Assembly: GCA_947499155.1 (NCBI GenBank)
Contig: CANMND010000003.1
Span: 62,001 to 126,000, forward strand
DNA length: 64,000 nucleotides
From: an uncultured Sphingomonadales bacterium
GTDB taxonomy: Bacteria > Pseudomonadota > Alphaproteobacteria > Sphingomonadales > Rhodothalassiaceae
Direction: 5' to 3'
Position numbers and translations under genes: made by a program
Shown here: in pieces, positions 38,041-46,022 of the stretch
Layout: the number at the start of each line of letters is the position of its first letter
How positions within the stretch are numbered: the stretch's first letter is position 1
Notes under the pieces: model-generated
The model's database searches: none
What the model was told of the DNA's origin: nothing
Seen by the model: the letters and a program-made list of their open reading frames with translations, nothing else

Positions 38041-38829
38041 TCAGTCTACTTCGCCCAGCCAGCCACGCCGGACCGCTTTTGCCACCGCATGGCTGCGAGA
38101 GCTGGCATTCAGCTTGGCAATGGCATTGCGGACATGAAAGCGGGCGGTCTCCGGTGAGCGGTCAATAATAATACCGATTTCACTGTCGGTTTTCCCCCGG
38201 GCCACCCATGTCAGGCACTCCCGCTCCCGAACTGTCAGGGGACAGGCATCGGCACCATCAAGCGCCAGCTTTCTGAGCATGGTGTCAAGATGCTCAAGGA
38301 ATGCGTGTGCGACAAGAAAAAGGTTGCTGGCATTGGCGTCGGCCCAGCTATGGCTGGTGCGGAGCGGCTCTTCAGTTACCCAAGTTACAAAACCTGTGCG
38401 GCCACCTGGCTGATGCACCGGAACTGTAATTCCAGAAACTGCCCCGGCCTGACGTAAAAGGCTAAGAGTCTGTTGCCCCAGTGCCGTAAAAGGCCGTGGC
38501 AGATTTATCGCCTTAACGCCCAGATTATCTTCATCAAGACCCCAGGAAAAAGGCCGACGCATCCGGCGGCATGGTTCGGCAAGTGGGCAGGCCAGCATCA
38601 GGCCGCTATCCACCCATTGCCGGATGAAGTCAGACGGCCAGCCCAATTCAACTCCTATATGCTCGCCAGCATCACCAAGGGGAAGCATGGGGTTAGAGAG
38701 GTCATTGTCAAAAGCAGCGCGCGGGAAAGGCAAGCCCTGACTGTAATGGCCCAGCATCATGGATGCCTCATGCACGCTTTGTGCGCCGGGCAGGTCGTTC
38801 AAAAATTGGTATGTCGGATCTGCTAACAT
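38041..38829 (-). CDS. LuxR-family regulator with N-terminal autoinducer-binding-like domain
   Basis: A 262-residue regulator. The N-terminal ~185 residues resemble an autoinducer-binding domain (e.g. GLMLACPLAEPCRRMRRPFSW, GAVSGITVPVHQPGGR), and the C-terminus is a LuxR helix-turn-helix: LTVRERECLTWVARGKTDSE and SPETARFHVRNAIAKLNA. No LuxI-type synthase is in the window, so it appears to be a LuxR solo. Ligand and targets unknown. Convergent with xerD. Confidence 0.88.
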   Translation of the reverse strand: MLADPTYQFLNDLPGAQSVHEASMMLGHYSQGLPFPRAAFDNDLSNPMLPLGDAGEHIGVELGWPSDFIRQWVDSGLMLACPLAEPCRRMRRPFSWGLDEDNLGVKAINLPRPFTALGQQTLSLLRQAGAVSGITVPVHQPGGRTGFVTWVTEEPLRTSHSWADANASNLFLVAHAFLEHLDTMLRKLALDGADACPLTVRERECLTWVARGKTDSEIGIIIDRSPETARFHVRNAIAKLNASSRSHAVAKAVRRGWLGEVD

Positions 38830-39626: not shown

Positions 39627-39710
39627 AGCCAATCTCCAACTCCATCCACTCGTCATATATACATGGATGCCATATGGCGCGTGAATGGTGGCTGAACAGA
39701 TTTTAGGCAC

Positions 39711-39826
39711 AAAAAAGCACGACGGGCTTGTGACCCGCCGTGCCTCCCCAATTAAGGGATTTTGTGCACTTTAAAGTGCTTGTTAACGGGTGGCTCTCAA
39801 TTCCTGAGCGGCTAAACTCTGATTAC
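39711..39826 (-). ncRNA. tracrRNA of the type II-C CRISPR system
   Basis: The minus strand at 39782-39818 is complementary to the CRISPR repeat: 25 of 27 bases match over the CTCAATTCCTGAGCGG core side, with a bulged upper part, as expected of an anti-repeat. Downstream lie a perfect hairpin GCACTTTAAAGTGC (39766-39779) and a terminator hairpin 39717-39743 followed by TTTTTT (39711-39716). A consensus TTGACA is found on the minus strand at 39859-39864 but with a poor -10, so the 5' end is approximate. It is divergent from cas9. Confidence 0.85.
39717..39743 (-). terminator. tracrRNA terminator
   Basis: A ten-base-pair stem with one mismatch and a seven-base loop; the minus strand continues with six T residues. 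Confidence 0.85.
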
Positions 39827-39895
39827 CACGAGGCGAGGTTGCGAGATAAAATCGCCATTGTCAAGTCATTGCACAGCGTCAAATACCCCTCTGCG

Positions 39896-39925: not shown

Positions 39926-39964
39926 ATTTCCAGATTAACAACATTTATGAAGTGGGGGGCTATC

Positions 39965-42900
39965 ATGACCTATCGTCTCGGATTTGACATGGGATCCAAT
40001 TCCCTTGGCTGGTGCGCCGTCCGTTTGGACAGTGACGGGGAACCGATCGACGTGCTTGATGCGGGCGTCCGAATACTGACGCCCAATGACGAAGCGGGCA
40101 AAGACCCACAATCGAAAGCATCCCTTGCCGCCAACAGGCGCGAGAAGCGTTCAGCCAGAAAACGCCGCGACCGTTTTCTTCGCCGCCAACAGCGCCTGAT
40201 GGAGCTTTTGATCAAGCACGGCCTGATGCCACAGGACAAGACTGCACGGAAAGAGCTGGAAAAGCTCGACCCCTATGTCTTGCGGGCCGAGGGCGTGACC
40301 AAGCCCTTGCCACCCCATGAATTCGGGCGGGCGCTGTTTCACATCAACCAGCGGCGCGGTTTTAAATCAAACCGCATTACCGATGCGGACGACACCGAAA
40401 AGGGAGCCGTCGCCGCCGGGAATAAAGCGCTGCAAGAGGCCCTTGAAAGCGAGGAAACCAGGCCCAAAAAAACCCTTGGTCAATTTCTTGCTGAACGCCA
40501 CAACCGCGACAGATACGGCAAGCGCACAAAGGATACGGTTATCCAGCCTGTACGCTTTCGACCCCGGACTGTGGGATCGAAAAATCTTTATGACCTTTAT
40601 CCGACACGCCAGATGACCGAGGAGGAAATTGACCGCTTGTGGGAAAAGCAATCACAAACAAACCCTGCCCTCACCGATGACCTGTTGACAAAAATCAAGC
40701 GCGTCATCGTTGATCAAAGACCATTGGAAAAGCCACTGGTGGGCAAGTGCACCTTCAATCCCAAAGAAGACCGTGCGCCAAGGGCCCTGCCCTTGTTCCA
40801 GCGCTACCGGATTTTGACAGAGACCGCCAATCTGATAGTGGAACTGCCCGGTGTTTCCAGACGCCCAATCAGCAAATCAGAGCAGAAATTGCTGGTGGGA
40901 TTATTGTGCCAGCGCGCCAGTACGGTGGATTTTACAACCCTGCGAAAGGCGCTGAAACTGCCTGATGAGGCAACGTTCAATCTTGAGCATGGCAAGCGCA
41001 AGGGCCTTGATCCCGACCTGACAGCCGCAAGGCTTGCCAACAAAAATATTCTGGGCAAGGCGTGGCGCGAAATCCCCATTAAGCGTCAAAATGAAATCGT
41101 CAAAAGTCTGCTGAATGAGGAGGACGAGGCAAAGCTGATCAGCTGGCTGACCGATGAGATGGGCTTTGATGAAGAGACCGCCACCAAAATGAGCGGCGCG
41201 CGTCTGCCACAGGGCCACGGCCATCTGGGAGAGACGATTCTTGGCCAGCTTGTGGAGGTGCTGGAGACTGACTCGACTGACTGTCCAGACCCCCAGACCG
41301 GTGAGATTTATGCACGGCCCCTTACCTATGACGAAGCGGTCAAAAGCATTGGCCACCACCATTCCGACATGAGCCCCAATGGGTTGCTGGCAGAACTGCC
41401 CTATTATGGCGATATCCTGCCGCGCCATGTCATTCAAAATCCCGACGCCCCGGAAACCAGCCAGGATTATCGCGGGCGGGTGCCCAATCCCACGGTTCAT
41501 ATTGCGCTTAATCAATTGCGGCAGGTGCTGAACTGCCTGATTCGCACCTATGGGCCACCTGCGGCCATCAACATTGAACTGGCCCGCGGATTAAAGCAGA
41601 GCCAAAAACAAAAAGACGAACAGACAAAAGCCAACCGTCAGAACGAAAAGGCCCGTGACGAATACCGGAAAATTCTGGATGAACTCGGCATGCCGGATAC
41701 CCATGGCAACATGCTGCTTTTGCGGCTTTTTCACGAGCTTCCGCCCGACGGACGTATCTGCGTTTATAGTGGCACGTCCCTGTCTATGGCCATGCTGACC
41801 ACGGGTGAGGTTGAAATTGACCATATCCTGCCCCGTTCACGGACGCTGGACGACAGTTTCATGAACAAGGTGCTGTGTACCCGCGCTGCCAACCGGGAAA
41901 AAGGCAACCGCGCCCCGGCAGAGGCGTGGTCCGGACAGAAACTGGCGGAAATTCACGCCCGCGCCAAACTGCTGTTGCCCAAAAAAGCCTGGCGCTTTGC
42001 CCCTGACGCCATGGAGCGGTTCGAGCGTGAAGGCGGCTTTTTGGAAAAGCAGTTGAAAGATACCCAGCACATGTCACGGCTGGCAAAAACTTATCTGGAG
42101 CATGTTTGCAAGGATGTCTTTGCTACACCGGGCAGGCTGACAGCCATGCTGCGCGGCAAATGGGGCCTTAATCGCCTGTTGCATGATCATAATCTGCACG
42201 GGGATGAGGCCCCCAAGCAGCGCAATGACCATCGCCATCATGCCATTGATGCCTTTGTCATTGCCTGCACTACCCGATCCCTATTGAACAGATTGTCTGC
42301 TGCGTCTGCACGCGCCGAATCGCTGCAACTGGACCGCTTTGCCCCCAGTGGCGAATTCCCCGACCCCTTCGATGGCTTTCGGGAACAGTTGAAAGCCCGT
42401 CTCGACACCATGATCATCAGCCACAAGCCTGATCATGGCATTGAAGGCCAGTTGCACGAGGAAACCGCCTATGGCGTGGTGGATGAAGAGATTGACGGCA
42501 AGCGGTTCAATCTGGTTGTACGCAAAAATATCGACAGCCTGACGGAAAAAATGGTCTGGCAGGTGCGGGACCAGACACTGCGCGAGGATCTGATCGCAGT
42601 GGTGGAAGAAGCAAAATACGCCACCACACAGGAGTACCGCGATACCGGCCAGAAGATCTCGGCCAATGACGTCAAAAAGGCCATAGCCACTGCCTTGGCC
42701 GACTATGGCCAGCGACACAATATCCGCCGCGTGCGCGTCCTGATGACGAAACAAGGGGTGCGCGTGATTGAACACGGCCCGGATGATCTGCCCGCCTACA
42801 AAAAATACAACAAAGCCTATGTGCCCGGCGGCAATTATAAGATAGAATTTTATGAGCATCCAAGTGGCAAGCTATTGAGCAAAAACTATACATATTTTGA

Positions 42901-43216
42901 CGCCAATAGGATGAAACTAGGCCAGAAAAATGGAAATATAATTACAGAAAGCAAACAAGAATCAGAGGCGAGATTACTTGTAACTCTTCATAAAGGAGAT
43001 ACAATAGAGGCTTGCATACAAGGAAGAAAAGGGCTTTTTATAGTTAGAAAGCTTGATCCAACTAATAATCGTATATACTGCGTCCCACAATATTACGCGG
43101 GCAAAGTAGATGATAAAATTTACATACAGGTTAGCTTTTCCAAATTCCGCGAATATAATCTAAAGCGAGTCAATGTAGATCCCATCGGACGGTTCAAGTA
43201 CCGGGAAGGATCCTGA
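39965..43216 (+). CDS. cas9: CRISPR-associated endonuclease Cas9, type II-C
   Basis: A 1083-residue Cas9 (ATG 39965 after a G-rich site). RuvC-I GFDMGSNSLGW with Asp8; Arg-rich bridge helix about 57-78; RuvC-II NIELARG with Glu538; HNH IDHILPRS with His620 and the NKVL...N motif; RuvC-III HHAIDAF with His759 and Asp762. All catalytic residues are present, so it should cut both strands. Length and absence of csn2 and cas4 fit subtype II-C. The C-terminal coding part about 42840-43180 (residues ~960-1070, much of the PAM-interacting domain) is AT-rich, unlike the GC-rich rest, suggesting replacement. cas1 begins 2 nt after the stop. Confidence 0.97.
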   Translation: MTYRLGFDMGSNSLGWCAVRLDSDGEPIDVLDAGVRILTPNDEAGKDPQSKASLAANRREKRSARKRRDRFLRRQQRLMELLIKHGLMPQDKTARKELEKLDPYVLRAEGVTKPLPPHEFGRALFHINQRRGFKSNRITDADDTEKGAVAAGNKALQEALESEETRPKKTLGQFLAERHNRDRYGKRTKDTVIQPVRFRPRTVGSKNLYDLYPTRQMTEEEIDRLWEKQSQTNPALTDDLLTKIKRVIVDQRPLEKPLVGKCTFNPKEDRAPRALPLFQRYRILTETANLIVELPGVSRRPISKSEQKLLVGLLCQRASTVDFTTLRKALKLPDEATFNLEHGKRKGLDPDLTAARLANKNILGKAWREIPIKRQNEIVKSLLNEEDEAKLISWLTDEMGFDEETATKMSGARLPQGHGHLGETILGQLVEVLETDSTDCPDPQTGEIYARPLTYDEAVKSIGHHHSDMSPNGLLAELPYYGDILPRHVIQNPDAPETSQDYRGRVPNPTVHIALNQLRQVLNCLIRTYGPPAAINIELARGLKQSQKQKDEQTKANRQNEKARDEYRKILDELGMPDTHGNMLLLRLFHELPPDGRICVYSGTSLSMAMLTTGEVEIDHILPRSRTLDDSFMNKVLCTRAANREKGNRAPAEAWSGQKLAEIHARAKLLLPKKAWRFAPDAMERFEREGGFLEKQLKDTQHMSRLAKTYLEHVCKDVFATPGRLTAMLRGKWGLNRLLHDHNLHGDEAPKQRNDHRHHAIDAFVIACTTRSLLNRLSAASARAESLQLDRFAPSGEFPDPFDGFREQLKARLDTMIISHKPDHGIEGQLHEETAYGVVDEEIDGKRFNLVVRKNIDSLTEKMVWQVRDQTLREDLIAVVEEAKYATTQEYRDTGQKISANDVKKAIATALADYGQRHNIRRVRVLMTKQGVRVIEHGPDDLPAYKKYNKAYVPGGNYKIEFYEHPSGKLLSKNYTYFDANRMKLGQKNGNIITESKQESEARLLVTLHKGDTIEACIQGRKGLFIVRKLDPTNNRIYCVPQYYAGKVDDKIYIQVSFSKFREYNLKRVNVDPIGRFKYREGS

Positions 43217-43217
43217 C

Positions 43218-44141
43218 ATGTACCCGCGCATTGTGGAAATCGCACAGGACAACCGGCATCTGTCGAAATACCGGGGCTTTCTGCTGGTCCATGAAGACAA
43301 GACAGAGCTGGCGCGGGTACCTTTGGATGATGTGGCGGCCCTGATTACCAGCGGCCATGGCATCACCGTATCCGCCAATCTGATAAGTGCCCTGGCCGAA
43401 CGGGGTGCGGCCTTTGTCTGTTGTGGATCCAATCACATGCCCACAGCGTTTTTATGGCCTGCAGACAGCCATTATCAGCAATCGGGCCGCATCCGGGATC
43501 AGGTGGCGGCCAGCAAGCCTCTAAAGAAACGCCTGTGGAGCCAGATTGTCTCGGCGAAAATCCGCCATCAGGGCGAAATCCTCGTCTCTCTTGGCCGCCC
43601 GGACCAGAATATCCTGCTGATGGCGCGGGGTGTGCGCTCTGGTGACCCCGATAATATGGAAGCGCAAGCCGCCCGCCGTTATTGGCCAGCCCTGTTCGGC
43701 GATGATTTCCGCCGTGACCGCACCGAGGCCGGCATCAACGCCATGCTGAACTATGCCTATGCGGTGCTGCGCGCCGGCACCTCCCGCGCCATCATGGGGG
43801 CGGGGCTTCATCCATCTCTCGGCCTGAACCACAGCAATCGCAACAACAGTTTTTTACTGGTGGATGATCTGATGGAGCCCTTCCGTCCCATTGCCGACCG
43901 GCTGGTGAAACAGCTTGTGGATGAGGGTGCAGATGGGGTGGAGCCACAAACCAAGCGGGCCATGGCGGCGCTCCTTGCAACAGACCTCAGCACTGACGAA
44001 GGGGTAAGCCCGCTTTTTCTGTGTCTCGAACGGTTGGCGTGGTCACTGGCCTGGTGTTTCAGTGGTGAAGCCCAAAAGCTTGAGATCGCGCGTCCGGCCC
44101 TGCCCTTGGAGTCGGGGCCACTGGACAGGGGGCCATCATGA
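43218..44141 (+). CDS. cas1: CRISPR adaptation endonuclease Cas1 (type II)
   Basis: A 307-residue Cas1 integrase. The catalytic triad is Glu148 (DNMEAQAARRYW), His205 (LHPSLGLNH) and Asp217 (LLVDDLMEPFRP). With Cas2 it inserts new spacers into the array. Starts one base after the cas9 stop and overlaps cas2 by 4 nt, so cas9-cas1-cas2 is one operon. Intact, so adaptation is plausible. Confidence 0.97.
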   Translation: MYPRIVEIAQDNRHLSKYRGFLLVHEDKTELARVPLDDVAALITSGHGITVSANLISALAERGAAFVCCGSNHMPTAFLWPADSHYQQSGRIRDQVAASKPLKKRLWSQIVSAKIRHQGEILVSLGRPDQNILLMARGVRSGDPDNMEAQAARRYWPALFGDDFRRDRTEAGINAMLNYAYAVLRAGTSRAIMGAGLHPSLGLNHSNRNNSFLLVDDLMEPFRPIADRLVKQLVDEGADGVEPQTKRAMAALLATDLSTDEGVSPLFLCLERLAWSLAWCFSGEAQKLEIARPALPLESGPLDRGPS

Positions 44142-44515
44142 AAAGGCAATCGAAAAAAGACAAGTCGGCCAAATGGCCACGTGCAACCTCAATGAGTGGA
44201 TTCAGGATGATGTGGTTATATGTGATGTTCGATCTGCCAACCGTGACCAAAAAAGAACGCAAGAGTGCTGCGCGCTTTCGCAAGGATTTGCTCGACCTTG
44301 GTTTTCAAATGGCGCAATATTCCGTTTACATGCGCTTTTGTGATGGCAAGGTCACGGCTGAAACTTATATCGGAAAGATCGAGCAGGCCCTGCCAAATCA
44401 GGGACGCGTCCATATCCTGACTGTCACCGACAAGCAGATAGAAAACGCCCGCATATTCATAGGAACAAGGCAAGAACGGTCGCCAAAAAACCCGGACCAA
44501 CTGGTACTTTTATGA
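44138..44515 (+). CDS. cas2: CRISPR adaptation protein Cas2
   Basis: A 125-residue Cas2 with ferredoxin-like fold. The first strand is WLYVMFDLPTVTKKERK with the conserved Asp32, followed by FRKDLLDLGFQMAQYSVYMR. It has an N-terminal basic extension of ~20 residues if the overlapping ATG at 44138 is used; a later ATG at 44192 would remove it. Partner of Cas1 in spacer capture. Confidence 0.95.
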   Translation: MKRQSKKDKSAKWPRATSMSGFRMMWLYVMFDLPTVTKKERKSAARFRKDLLDLGFQMAQYSVYMRFCDGKVTAETYIGKIEQALPNQGRVHILTVTDKQIENARIFIGTRQERSPKNPDQLVLL

Positions 44516-44550
44516 CGCAAAAACCCCATTTTTTTCCGAGTCAGAACAAG

Positions 44551-44576
44551 AAAAAAGCCCTGCAGTGCAGGGCTTT
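44551..44576 (-). terminator. Terminator at the end of the CRISPR array transcript
   Basis: Eleven-base arms AAAGCCCTGCA / TGCAGGGCTTT. On the minus strand a run of six T residues ends the hairpin; on the plus strand only three. It therefore stops leftward transcription from the array, 12 bases beyond the outermost repeat. Confidence 0.82.
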
Positions 44577-44588
44577 AAGTGGGTATCT

Positions 44589-45612
44589 AGTATAGCCGCT
44601 CAGGAATTGAGAACCAACCGCAACAACAACATATGTTAAATTACTGATTCGTGTAGTATAGCCGCTCAGGAATTGAGAACCAACCGCAACCCGGGCGGCA
44701 AGACAGCGCTGCGATATCAAAGTATAGCCGCTCAGGAATTGAGAACCAACCGCAACGTGCTCAGCAATAGCGTCCACATGGGCTTGAGTATAGCCGCTCA
44801 GGAATTGAGAACCAACCGCAACATGACCTCGCGGCTGGTCTCTCTGCTCTCTAGTATAGCCGCTCAGGAATTGAGAACCAACCGCAACGAATGACGTGAG
44901 ATCATACGCTCAATCACAAGTATAGCCGCTCAGGAATTGAGAACCAACCGCAACGGGCAGCGCTCGCTCTCCCCGGATTTTAGTAGTATAGCCGCTCAGG
45001 AATTGAGAACCAACCGCAACCTGTCCACAGCAATCATGGAAGACGATGCAGTATAGCCGCTCAGGAATTGAGAACCAACCGCAACTTGACCACCATCAGT
45101 AGGGGTCGGGGGGGAAGTATAGCCGCTCAGGAATTGAGAACCAACCGCAACTGGCAGCGGTGGGCGGATATCTGGCGTTCAAGTATAGCCGCTCAGGAAT
45201 TGAGAACCAACCGCAACCGAGCTATACCACCAGCGACGCAAGACACGAGTGTAGCCGCTCAGGAATTGAGAACCAACCGCAACTGTAGTACTCATCCAAC
45301 TCGGCTTTAGTGAGTATAGCCGCTCAGGAATTGAGAACCAACCGCAACAAGTGGCTCCCGGCGATCATGAGAGACGATAGTATAGCCGCTCAGGAATTGA
45401 GAACCAACCGCAACTGGTGGACGCTCTGGGCGGGCTGGCGCAGCAGTATAGCCGCTCAGGAATTGAGAACCAACCGCAACCAGGCCGTGTGGCGAACTGC
45501 GACCAGGCGCAGTATAGCCGCTCAGGAATTGAGAACCAACCGCAACCTCCTCCTCAACCAGTTCCAACTCCTCCTCAGTATAGCCGCTCAGGAATTGAGA
45601 ACCAACCGCAAC
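44589..45612 (-). CRISPR. CRISPR array, 16 repeats and 15 spacers (type II-C)
   Basis: Repeats of 36 nt begin on the plus strand with AGTATAGCCGCTCAGG and end with ACCAACCGCAAC. Starts: 44589, 44655, 44721, 44787, 44853, 44919, 44985, 45050, 45116, 45182, 45248, 45313, 45379, 45445, 45511, 45577. Spacers are 30 nt, except those at 45021 and 45284, which are 29. Only the repeat at 45248 differs by eye (AGTGTA in place of AGTATA). Transcription on the minus strand is supported by complementarity to the tracrRNA, by promoter-like elements inside the repeat, and by the leftward terminator at 44551. Confidence 0.99.
45577..45605 (-). promoter_or_regulatory. Intra-repeat promoter (shown for the rightmost repeat, present in each)
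   Basis: Read on the minus strand the repeat contains TTGGTT, 17 bases, then TATACT at its very 3' end, so transcription would start in the adjacent spacer. The same arrangement is known from Neisseria meningitidis II-C repeats. In the variant repeat at 45248 the -10 becomes TACACT. Confidence 0.65.
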
Positions 45613-45695
45613 GAAGCGTGCGGGGCTGGCGATGCTGGACGGCGCAGGGAATCCAAAAATAGACTTGATCCAGTTTAGAATATATAGCTGGCCTG

Positions 45696-46022
45696 ATGAA
45701 GACGGTTTTGGTGTACTTCGCTGCTGCACTGAGTGAAATTGCCGGGTGTTTTGCCTTTTGGGCATGGTTCCGGCTGGACAAGAGCGTGTTCTGGCTGGCA
45801 CCAGGGACATTGGCTCTTGTGGTTTTCGCATGGTTGCTGGCCCTCAGCCCCGCCGATCAGGCAGGCCGCGCTTTTGCCGTTTATGGCGGTATTTATATCG
45901 TCGCGTCGTTACTTTGGCTTTGGGGCGTTGAAGGCCATCGCCCGGATCAGTGGGATATGCTGGGGGCAAGTATCTGCCTTGTTGGTGCTGGCATTATCCT
46001 CTGGGCACCGCGAAGTATTTAA
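45696..46022 (+). CDS. YnfA/UPF0060 family small membrane protein
   Basis: A 108-residue protein with four hydrophobic helices: [59 protein letters not shown] and [18 protein letters not shown]. The AEIxGCxxxWxWxR-like signature ([16 protein letters not shown]) marks the YnfA family, an SMR-like fold whose substrates are not well defined. It lies 83 nt right of the CRISPR array. Confidence 0.92.

Follow-up and report, generated by a model that had tools for sequence, protein, structure and literature searches.

Repeats of a type II-C CRISPR array that likely double as sigma-70 promoters in an alphaproteobacterium

RNase III is dispensable for crRNA maturation in Neisseria meningitidis, and the II-C array of this species was reportedly described by Zhang et al. 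in 2013 as having 36-nt repeats, as is also the case in the window, the 64,000-nt stretch of DNA analysed here. The accessible parts of two papers place an extended -10 element in the terminal bases of each N. meningitidis repeat (PMC7038990, PMC3656092), and the latter also gives transcription starts within the repeat units of Campylobacter jejuni. In Clostridium cellulolyticum H10, the last nine bases of the repeat resemble an extended -10, according to the available text of PMC7038990. Acquisition of spacers by II-C systems has been located at the last repeat (PMC12080349), and the same polarity is given in the available portions of PMC12638026 and PMC8092290.

The window was found to carry cas9, cas1 and cas2 as three adjacent open reading frames, without Csn2 or Cas4 at the locus (Table 1). 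This gene content, with a tracrRNA encoded upstream of cas9, supports assignment to type II-C. The array reads on the minus strand towards cas2 and is convergent to cas9-cas1-cas2, the terminator lying in between. Its crRNA sense is fixed by the polarity of the tracrRNA, since hairpins and a terminator follow the anti-repeat on the minus strand. The source genome (2.8 Mb, 25 contigs) contains an RNase III gene and has the family code f1 in common with a Rhodothalassium salexigens DSM 2132-type genome. No second array with the window repeat was detected in it at up to 3 mismatches over the last 26 bases of the repeat. The other neighbours of the array are UPF0060 and DUF2231 genes; the former encodes a YnfA/UPF0060 membrane protein (45696-46022) and is divergent from the array, about 84 bp off its oldest end. 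Upstream of cas9, near the CRISPR locus, lie the genes for a protein without a Pfam match and for a LuxR-type regulator with an autoinducer-binding domain (38041-38829).

Table 1. Positions of the features of the CRISPR-Cas locus within the window
Feature	Position	Strand	Description
tracrRNA, remainder	39709..39786	-	terminator hairpin about 39744-39715
tracrRNA, anti-repeat	39787..39818	-	copy of the repeat upstream of cas9
cas9	39947..43216	+	1089 aa; NCBIfam match to Cas9 (cas_Csn1)
cas1	43218..44141	+	NCBIfam match to type II Cas1 (cas1_NMENI)
cas2	44138..44515	+	NCBIfam match to cas2
Putative leader for spacer insertion	44516..44588	-	array 3' end (crRNA sense), beside cas2; flank conserved in relatives
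Intrinsic terminator 3' of last repeat	44554..44576	-	10-bp stem, then T's
CRISPR array	44589..45612	-	16 repeats of 36 nt; 15 spacers (13 of 30 nt, 2 of 29 nt)
Candidate -10 hexamer TATACT	44589..44594 (last copy)	-	3'-terminal six bases of each repeat (TACACT in one)
Weak -35 TTGGTT proposed earlier	44612..44617 (last copy)	-	repeat positions 8-13, 17-bp spacer
Sole variant repeat	45248..45283	-	TATACT to TACACT, still TA...T
5' flank (oldest end)	45613..45695	-	not conserved among relatives; promoter-like sites reach 7/12 at most

A sequence-only reading of this DNA had placed a CRISPR array at 44589-45612, closed by a leftward terminator and of II-C kind, in the crRNA sense given above, and our analysis agrees on each of these points. 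Fifteen of the 16 minus-strand copies of the repeat are identical and the remaining one has a single change; the terminator (44576-44554) has a 10-bp stem with T's behind it and folds with -16.1 kcal/mol (z -3.4). The same reading had proposed a promoter of the form TTGGTT-17-TATACT in every repeat. This arrangement is present in 15 of the 16 and is broken in the copy at 45248-45283 by TACACT, which is the usual hexamer in several relatives. Placement of the -10 in the last six bases is upheld by the comparison of related repeats given below. The named -35 fares worse, as it agrees with TTGACA at only 3/6 positions and is off the register of the family, which lies one base further on at positions 9-14; the window there has TGGTTC (2/6, with a 16-bp spacer).

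To gauge chance, the letters of the repeat were shuffled 20,000 times. The last six bases themselves matched TATAAT at 5/6 in 0.15% of shuffles; any 8/12 two-hexamer site wholly within the repeat arose in 2.0%, and the exact TTGGTT-17-TATACT arrangement, which was chosen after the fact, in 0.02%. Each repeat has a two-hexamer score of 8/12 and the variant repeat one of 7/12, so that the sense strand has a site of at least 7/12 in 16 of 16 repeats, as against 3 scattered sites across the whole array on the antisense strand. A generic promoter scan, for which 9/12 is needed, does not report the repeat site. The window repeat (GGCTATACT) lacks the T that an extended -10 has at -15, and shows GGC instead of TGn. 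Since its -35 is poor in either register, the window promoter probably leans on the -10 and on a G at -14. Each repeat in the window very probably contains a promoter directed into the following spacer unit.

To collect related loci, 396 genomes from the order and 385 from the class were searched for Cas9, which gave 60 wide loci, and named genomes were scanned with a 26-row Cas9 alignment, from which the best 80 loci were kept. Usable repeats were obtained at 95 of these 140 loci (60 wide and the best 80 named), making, with the window, 100 arrays and 83 distinct repeats; at the remaining loci a usable array was out of reach, often by a contig end. A consensus shorter than 30 nt (L110, L116) was left out of one array set and one outside 33-50 nt out of the other, and the duplicates L126, L143, L146 and L152 were left out of the anti-repeat, polarity, first-repeat and tree analyses.

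Among the 83 distinct repeats, 68 end in TANNNT and 81 have TA at positions 31-32. The last base is T in 69 and C in 14, never A or G, and position 36 is solely T or C in all 81 repeats of 36 nt; judged by E. coli standards, the 14 C endings would make a weaker -10. The hexamer shows the sigma-70 pattern, with variable bases at 33-35 and hardly any variation at 31, 32 and 36 (T or C at the last of these). In 33 dissimilar 36-nt repeats representing clusters of 80% identity, the mean match to TATAAT peaks at position 31 with 4.15/6 (next best 2.42, shuffle maximum 2.09) and that to TTGACA at position 9 with 3.55 (shuffle maximum 2.27). These family -35 and -10 peaks are 16 bp apart. The -35 consensus is TGGACC/TTGACC, and several relatives (e.g. 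L080, L096, L117) have TTGACC or TTGACT at positions 9-14, of which the window's TGGTTC is a poor version. Related loci are not independent of one another; when they are grouped into 35 clusters at 80% identity, TANNNT is found in 27. Purines are not favoured at nt 7-9, where transcription would be expected to start, in a set of 1,791 distinct spacers. A CTA...T repeat ending also occurs in II-C arrays of Burkholderiales/Nitrosomonadales (L189, L204) and of a proteobacterium (L205), and the pattern is therefore not confined to alphaproteobacteria.

The 3' crRNA end adjoins cas2 in 88 of the 92 arrays with a cas2 match (median 76 nt); the other 4 are second arrays further from cas2, and 3 more arrays have no cas2 match. 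In cas2-adjacent arrays of at least 4 repeats, the first repeat is a variant in 45/87, the last in 3/87 and an inner one in 44/1726; in the window, the first and the last repeat are both intact. Over 40 nt, 3' flanks are 38.6% alike and 5' flanks 25.8% (28 representatives), and terminator-like hairpins occur in 30/82 3' flanks, 3/75 5' flanks and about 2/82 shuffled 3' flanks. By these comparisons, the oldest, degenerate repeat is at the end away from cas2, where the flank has no conserved leader. Because of the conserved cas2-side flank and the degenerate first repeat of the relatives, new spacers would enter beside cas2, downstream of transcription, at the array's 3' end, which is transcribed last. 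The insertion end was unreadable from the window's own species, since protospacers, sought for polarity and PAM, gave one weak phage match (E 0.3) and none in plasmids, and no strain-level relative with the same array was found among the 21 relatives searched. Spacers 4 and 9 (45349-45378 and 45021-45049) have 15/18 bases in common, as if from related targets.

In 35 variant first repeats, with 1-9 changes each, 137 changes fall in positions 1-18, 6 in 19-30 and 0 in 31-36, and TA...[TC] is kept in 43/43 comparable variant first repeats, those of L097 and L142, cut by a contig end, being left out. This pattern was not taken to prove that the promoter is under selection, because the oldest repeat of any array is expected to erode from its outer side; mutations in extra repeats lie mostly within the first 15 nt (PMC12080349). 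Second arrays far from cas2 (L151:19093-20119, L122:16173-16802, L090:2604-4549) have a 3' flank without a conserved leader and a degenerate last repeat, and could still be expressed with repeat promoters. Instead of the usual terminator, the 3' flank in several sphingomonad-type loci (L071, L075, L086, L173) looks like a single extended inverted repeat (GGATG ... CATCC) that no run of T's follows.

Based on the motif and its family comparison, it is likely that this II-C CRISPR-Cas9 locus has repeats doubling as sigma-70 promoters. RNA polymerase would initiate within each spacer, at about its nt 7, and continue across all later units as far as the terminator (44576-44554). Since nothing ends transcription before this single terminator after the last repeat, the transcripts should be nested, and the earlier proposal that each spacer is an independent unit holds for initiation only. 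The companion proposal, that 5' trimming needs no RNase III, is a conjecture for this array, whose repeat pairs almost entirely with the tracrRNA and whose genome encodes RNase III. The tracrRNA and RNase III would cut the duplex in downstream repeats, so that initiation would set the crRNA 5' ends and processing the 3' ends. Promoters would add up: with new spacers entering next to cas2, where the transcripts end, the newest ones would also be covered by every transcript begun upstream. As a leader at the insertion end could be transcribed only antisense, the promoter would have to travel with the repeat.

The terminator does not discriminate repeat promoters from a single long precursor. Such a precursor would start from a promoter right of 45612, as in II-A, and all crRNAs would arise by tracrRNA/RNase III processing, for which the duplex of the tracrRNA with almost the whole repeat (-58.3 kcal/mol; shuffled-repeat mean -19.0) and the RNase III present would suffice. 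We consider this improbable, because the best site on the array strand in 45613-45900 scores 7/12 against 8/12 per repeat (variant 7/12), relatives show no conservation of the 5' flank (25.8% alike, compared with 38.6% on the 3' side) and the oldest repeat is the one at the 5' end. Equally little weight is given to the reading that GCTANNN[TC] at the repeat end is recognised by Cas1-Cas2 on insertion and that its -10 likeness is a by-product. The repeat 3' end is indeed the insertion end, and an integration-site constraint could explain the restriction of position 36 to T or C (81/81). However, bases 33-35, next to the junction, are among the most variable, a TTGAC-like peak stands at promoter distance, and starts have been mapped in related II-C repeats, as stated in the accessible part of PMC3656092. 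The promoter and recognition roles may both hold together.

Anti-repeats were compared at 67 loci, 24 of 91 having been dropped (weak, wrong orientation or length). Their identity to the repeat is at least 90% at most middle positions, 75% at 31-32, 36% at 35 and 27% at 36, and TANNNT is kept in 14/67 anti-repeats against 57/67 repeats. Conservation of the repeat 3' end solely through tracrRNA pairing is highly improbable: the window anti-repeat does pair to the very end of the repeat, position 33 being mismatched, but across the 67 loci identity drops from mostly 90-100% mid-repeat to those low values at 35 and 36, and pairing does not explain conservation of a last base that the tracrRNA barely matches. 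Read towards cas9, the anti-repeat still ends in TAAACT (39813-39818). It was rejected as a cas9 promoter, as it scores 7/12 and a 9/12 site lies nearer cas9 at 39847-39852.

The last repeat base corresponds to -7, and in Novosphingobium aromaticivorans more than 80% of sigma-70 promoters are without T at -7, according to the accessible part of PMC8407463. C is the last repeat base in 13 of 21 Sphingomonadales-type loci (family code f6 or named) as against 3 of the 70 other loci, a strong raw association with the host (Fisher 4e-8). Eleven further f6 loci yielded 10 with an array, C being the last base in 6 of these (one of them a repetition of L197) and T in the other 4. A Cas1 tree was built with 82 of the 91 loci, after removal of 6 long branches and of 3 loci lacking a usable cas1. 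It offered only 5 independent pairs; the host trait went the same way in about 2 and the opposite way in none, which is not significant. Among the loci listed, those of Rhodobacterales have T in 9/9. Promoters of Rhodobacter sphaeroides also often lack T at -7. T at the last base is replaced by C alone, which integration constraints could explain. That the repeat promoter follows the promoter grammar of its host, the last base having gone from T to C several times in sphingomonads, is a tentative idea that seems to us rather unlikely. If true, it would mean that a CRISPR locus moving between hosts is re-tuned at the base setting promoter strength.

The locus resembles II-C of C. jejuni in having cas9-cas1-cas2 with a tracrRNA. 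Each C. jejuni repeat likewise has a -10 box towards its 3' end, and separate starts have been mapped for the crRNAs of that species, whereas those of the window are predicted from sequence (Dugar et al. 2013, PMC3656092). The window comes from a different class and its repeat sequence differs. Unlike N. meningitidis, it has GGC instead of TGn before TATACT. As in II-C of C. cellulolyticum H10, the array is opposite to the cas genes; the crRNAs of that system were sequenced (in E. coli), whereas those of the window are predicted (PMC7038990). As proposed for the window, Flavobacterium columnare II-C takes up spacers at the array end that transcription runs towards; PMC8092290 describes its repeats as lacking a -10 motif and proposes a TTG motif instead. 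Our literature searches, with some key subscription papers outside their reach, found no paper on repeat promoters in alphaproteobacteria. Repeat promoters and 3'-end acquisition in II-C are already published, and the window is a well-supported further example. By comparison, a scheme mapped by transcript sequencing in few bacteria is extended to a large alphaproteobacterial set and is linked to the reversed polarity of the array, in which the promoter would be copied with each new repeat.
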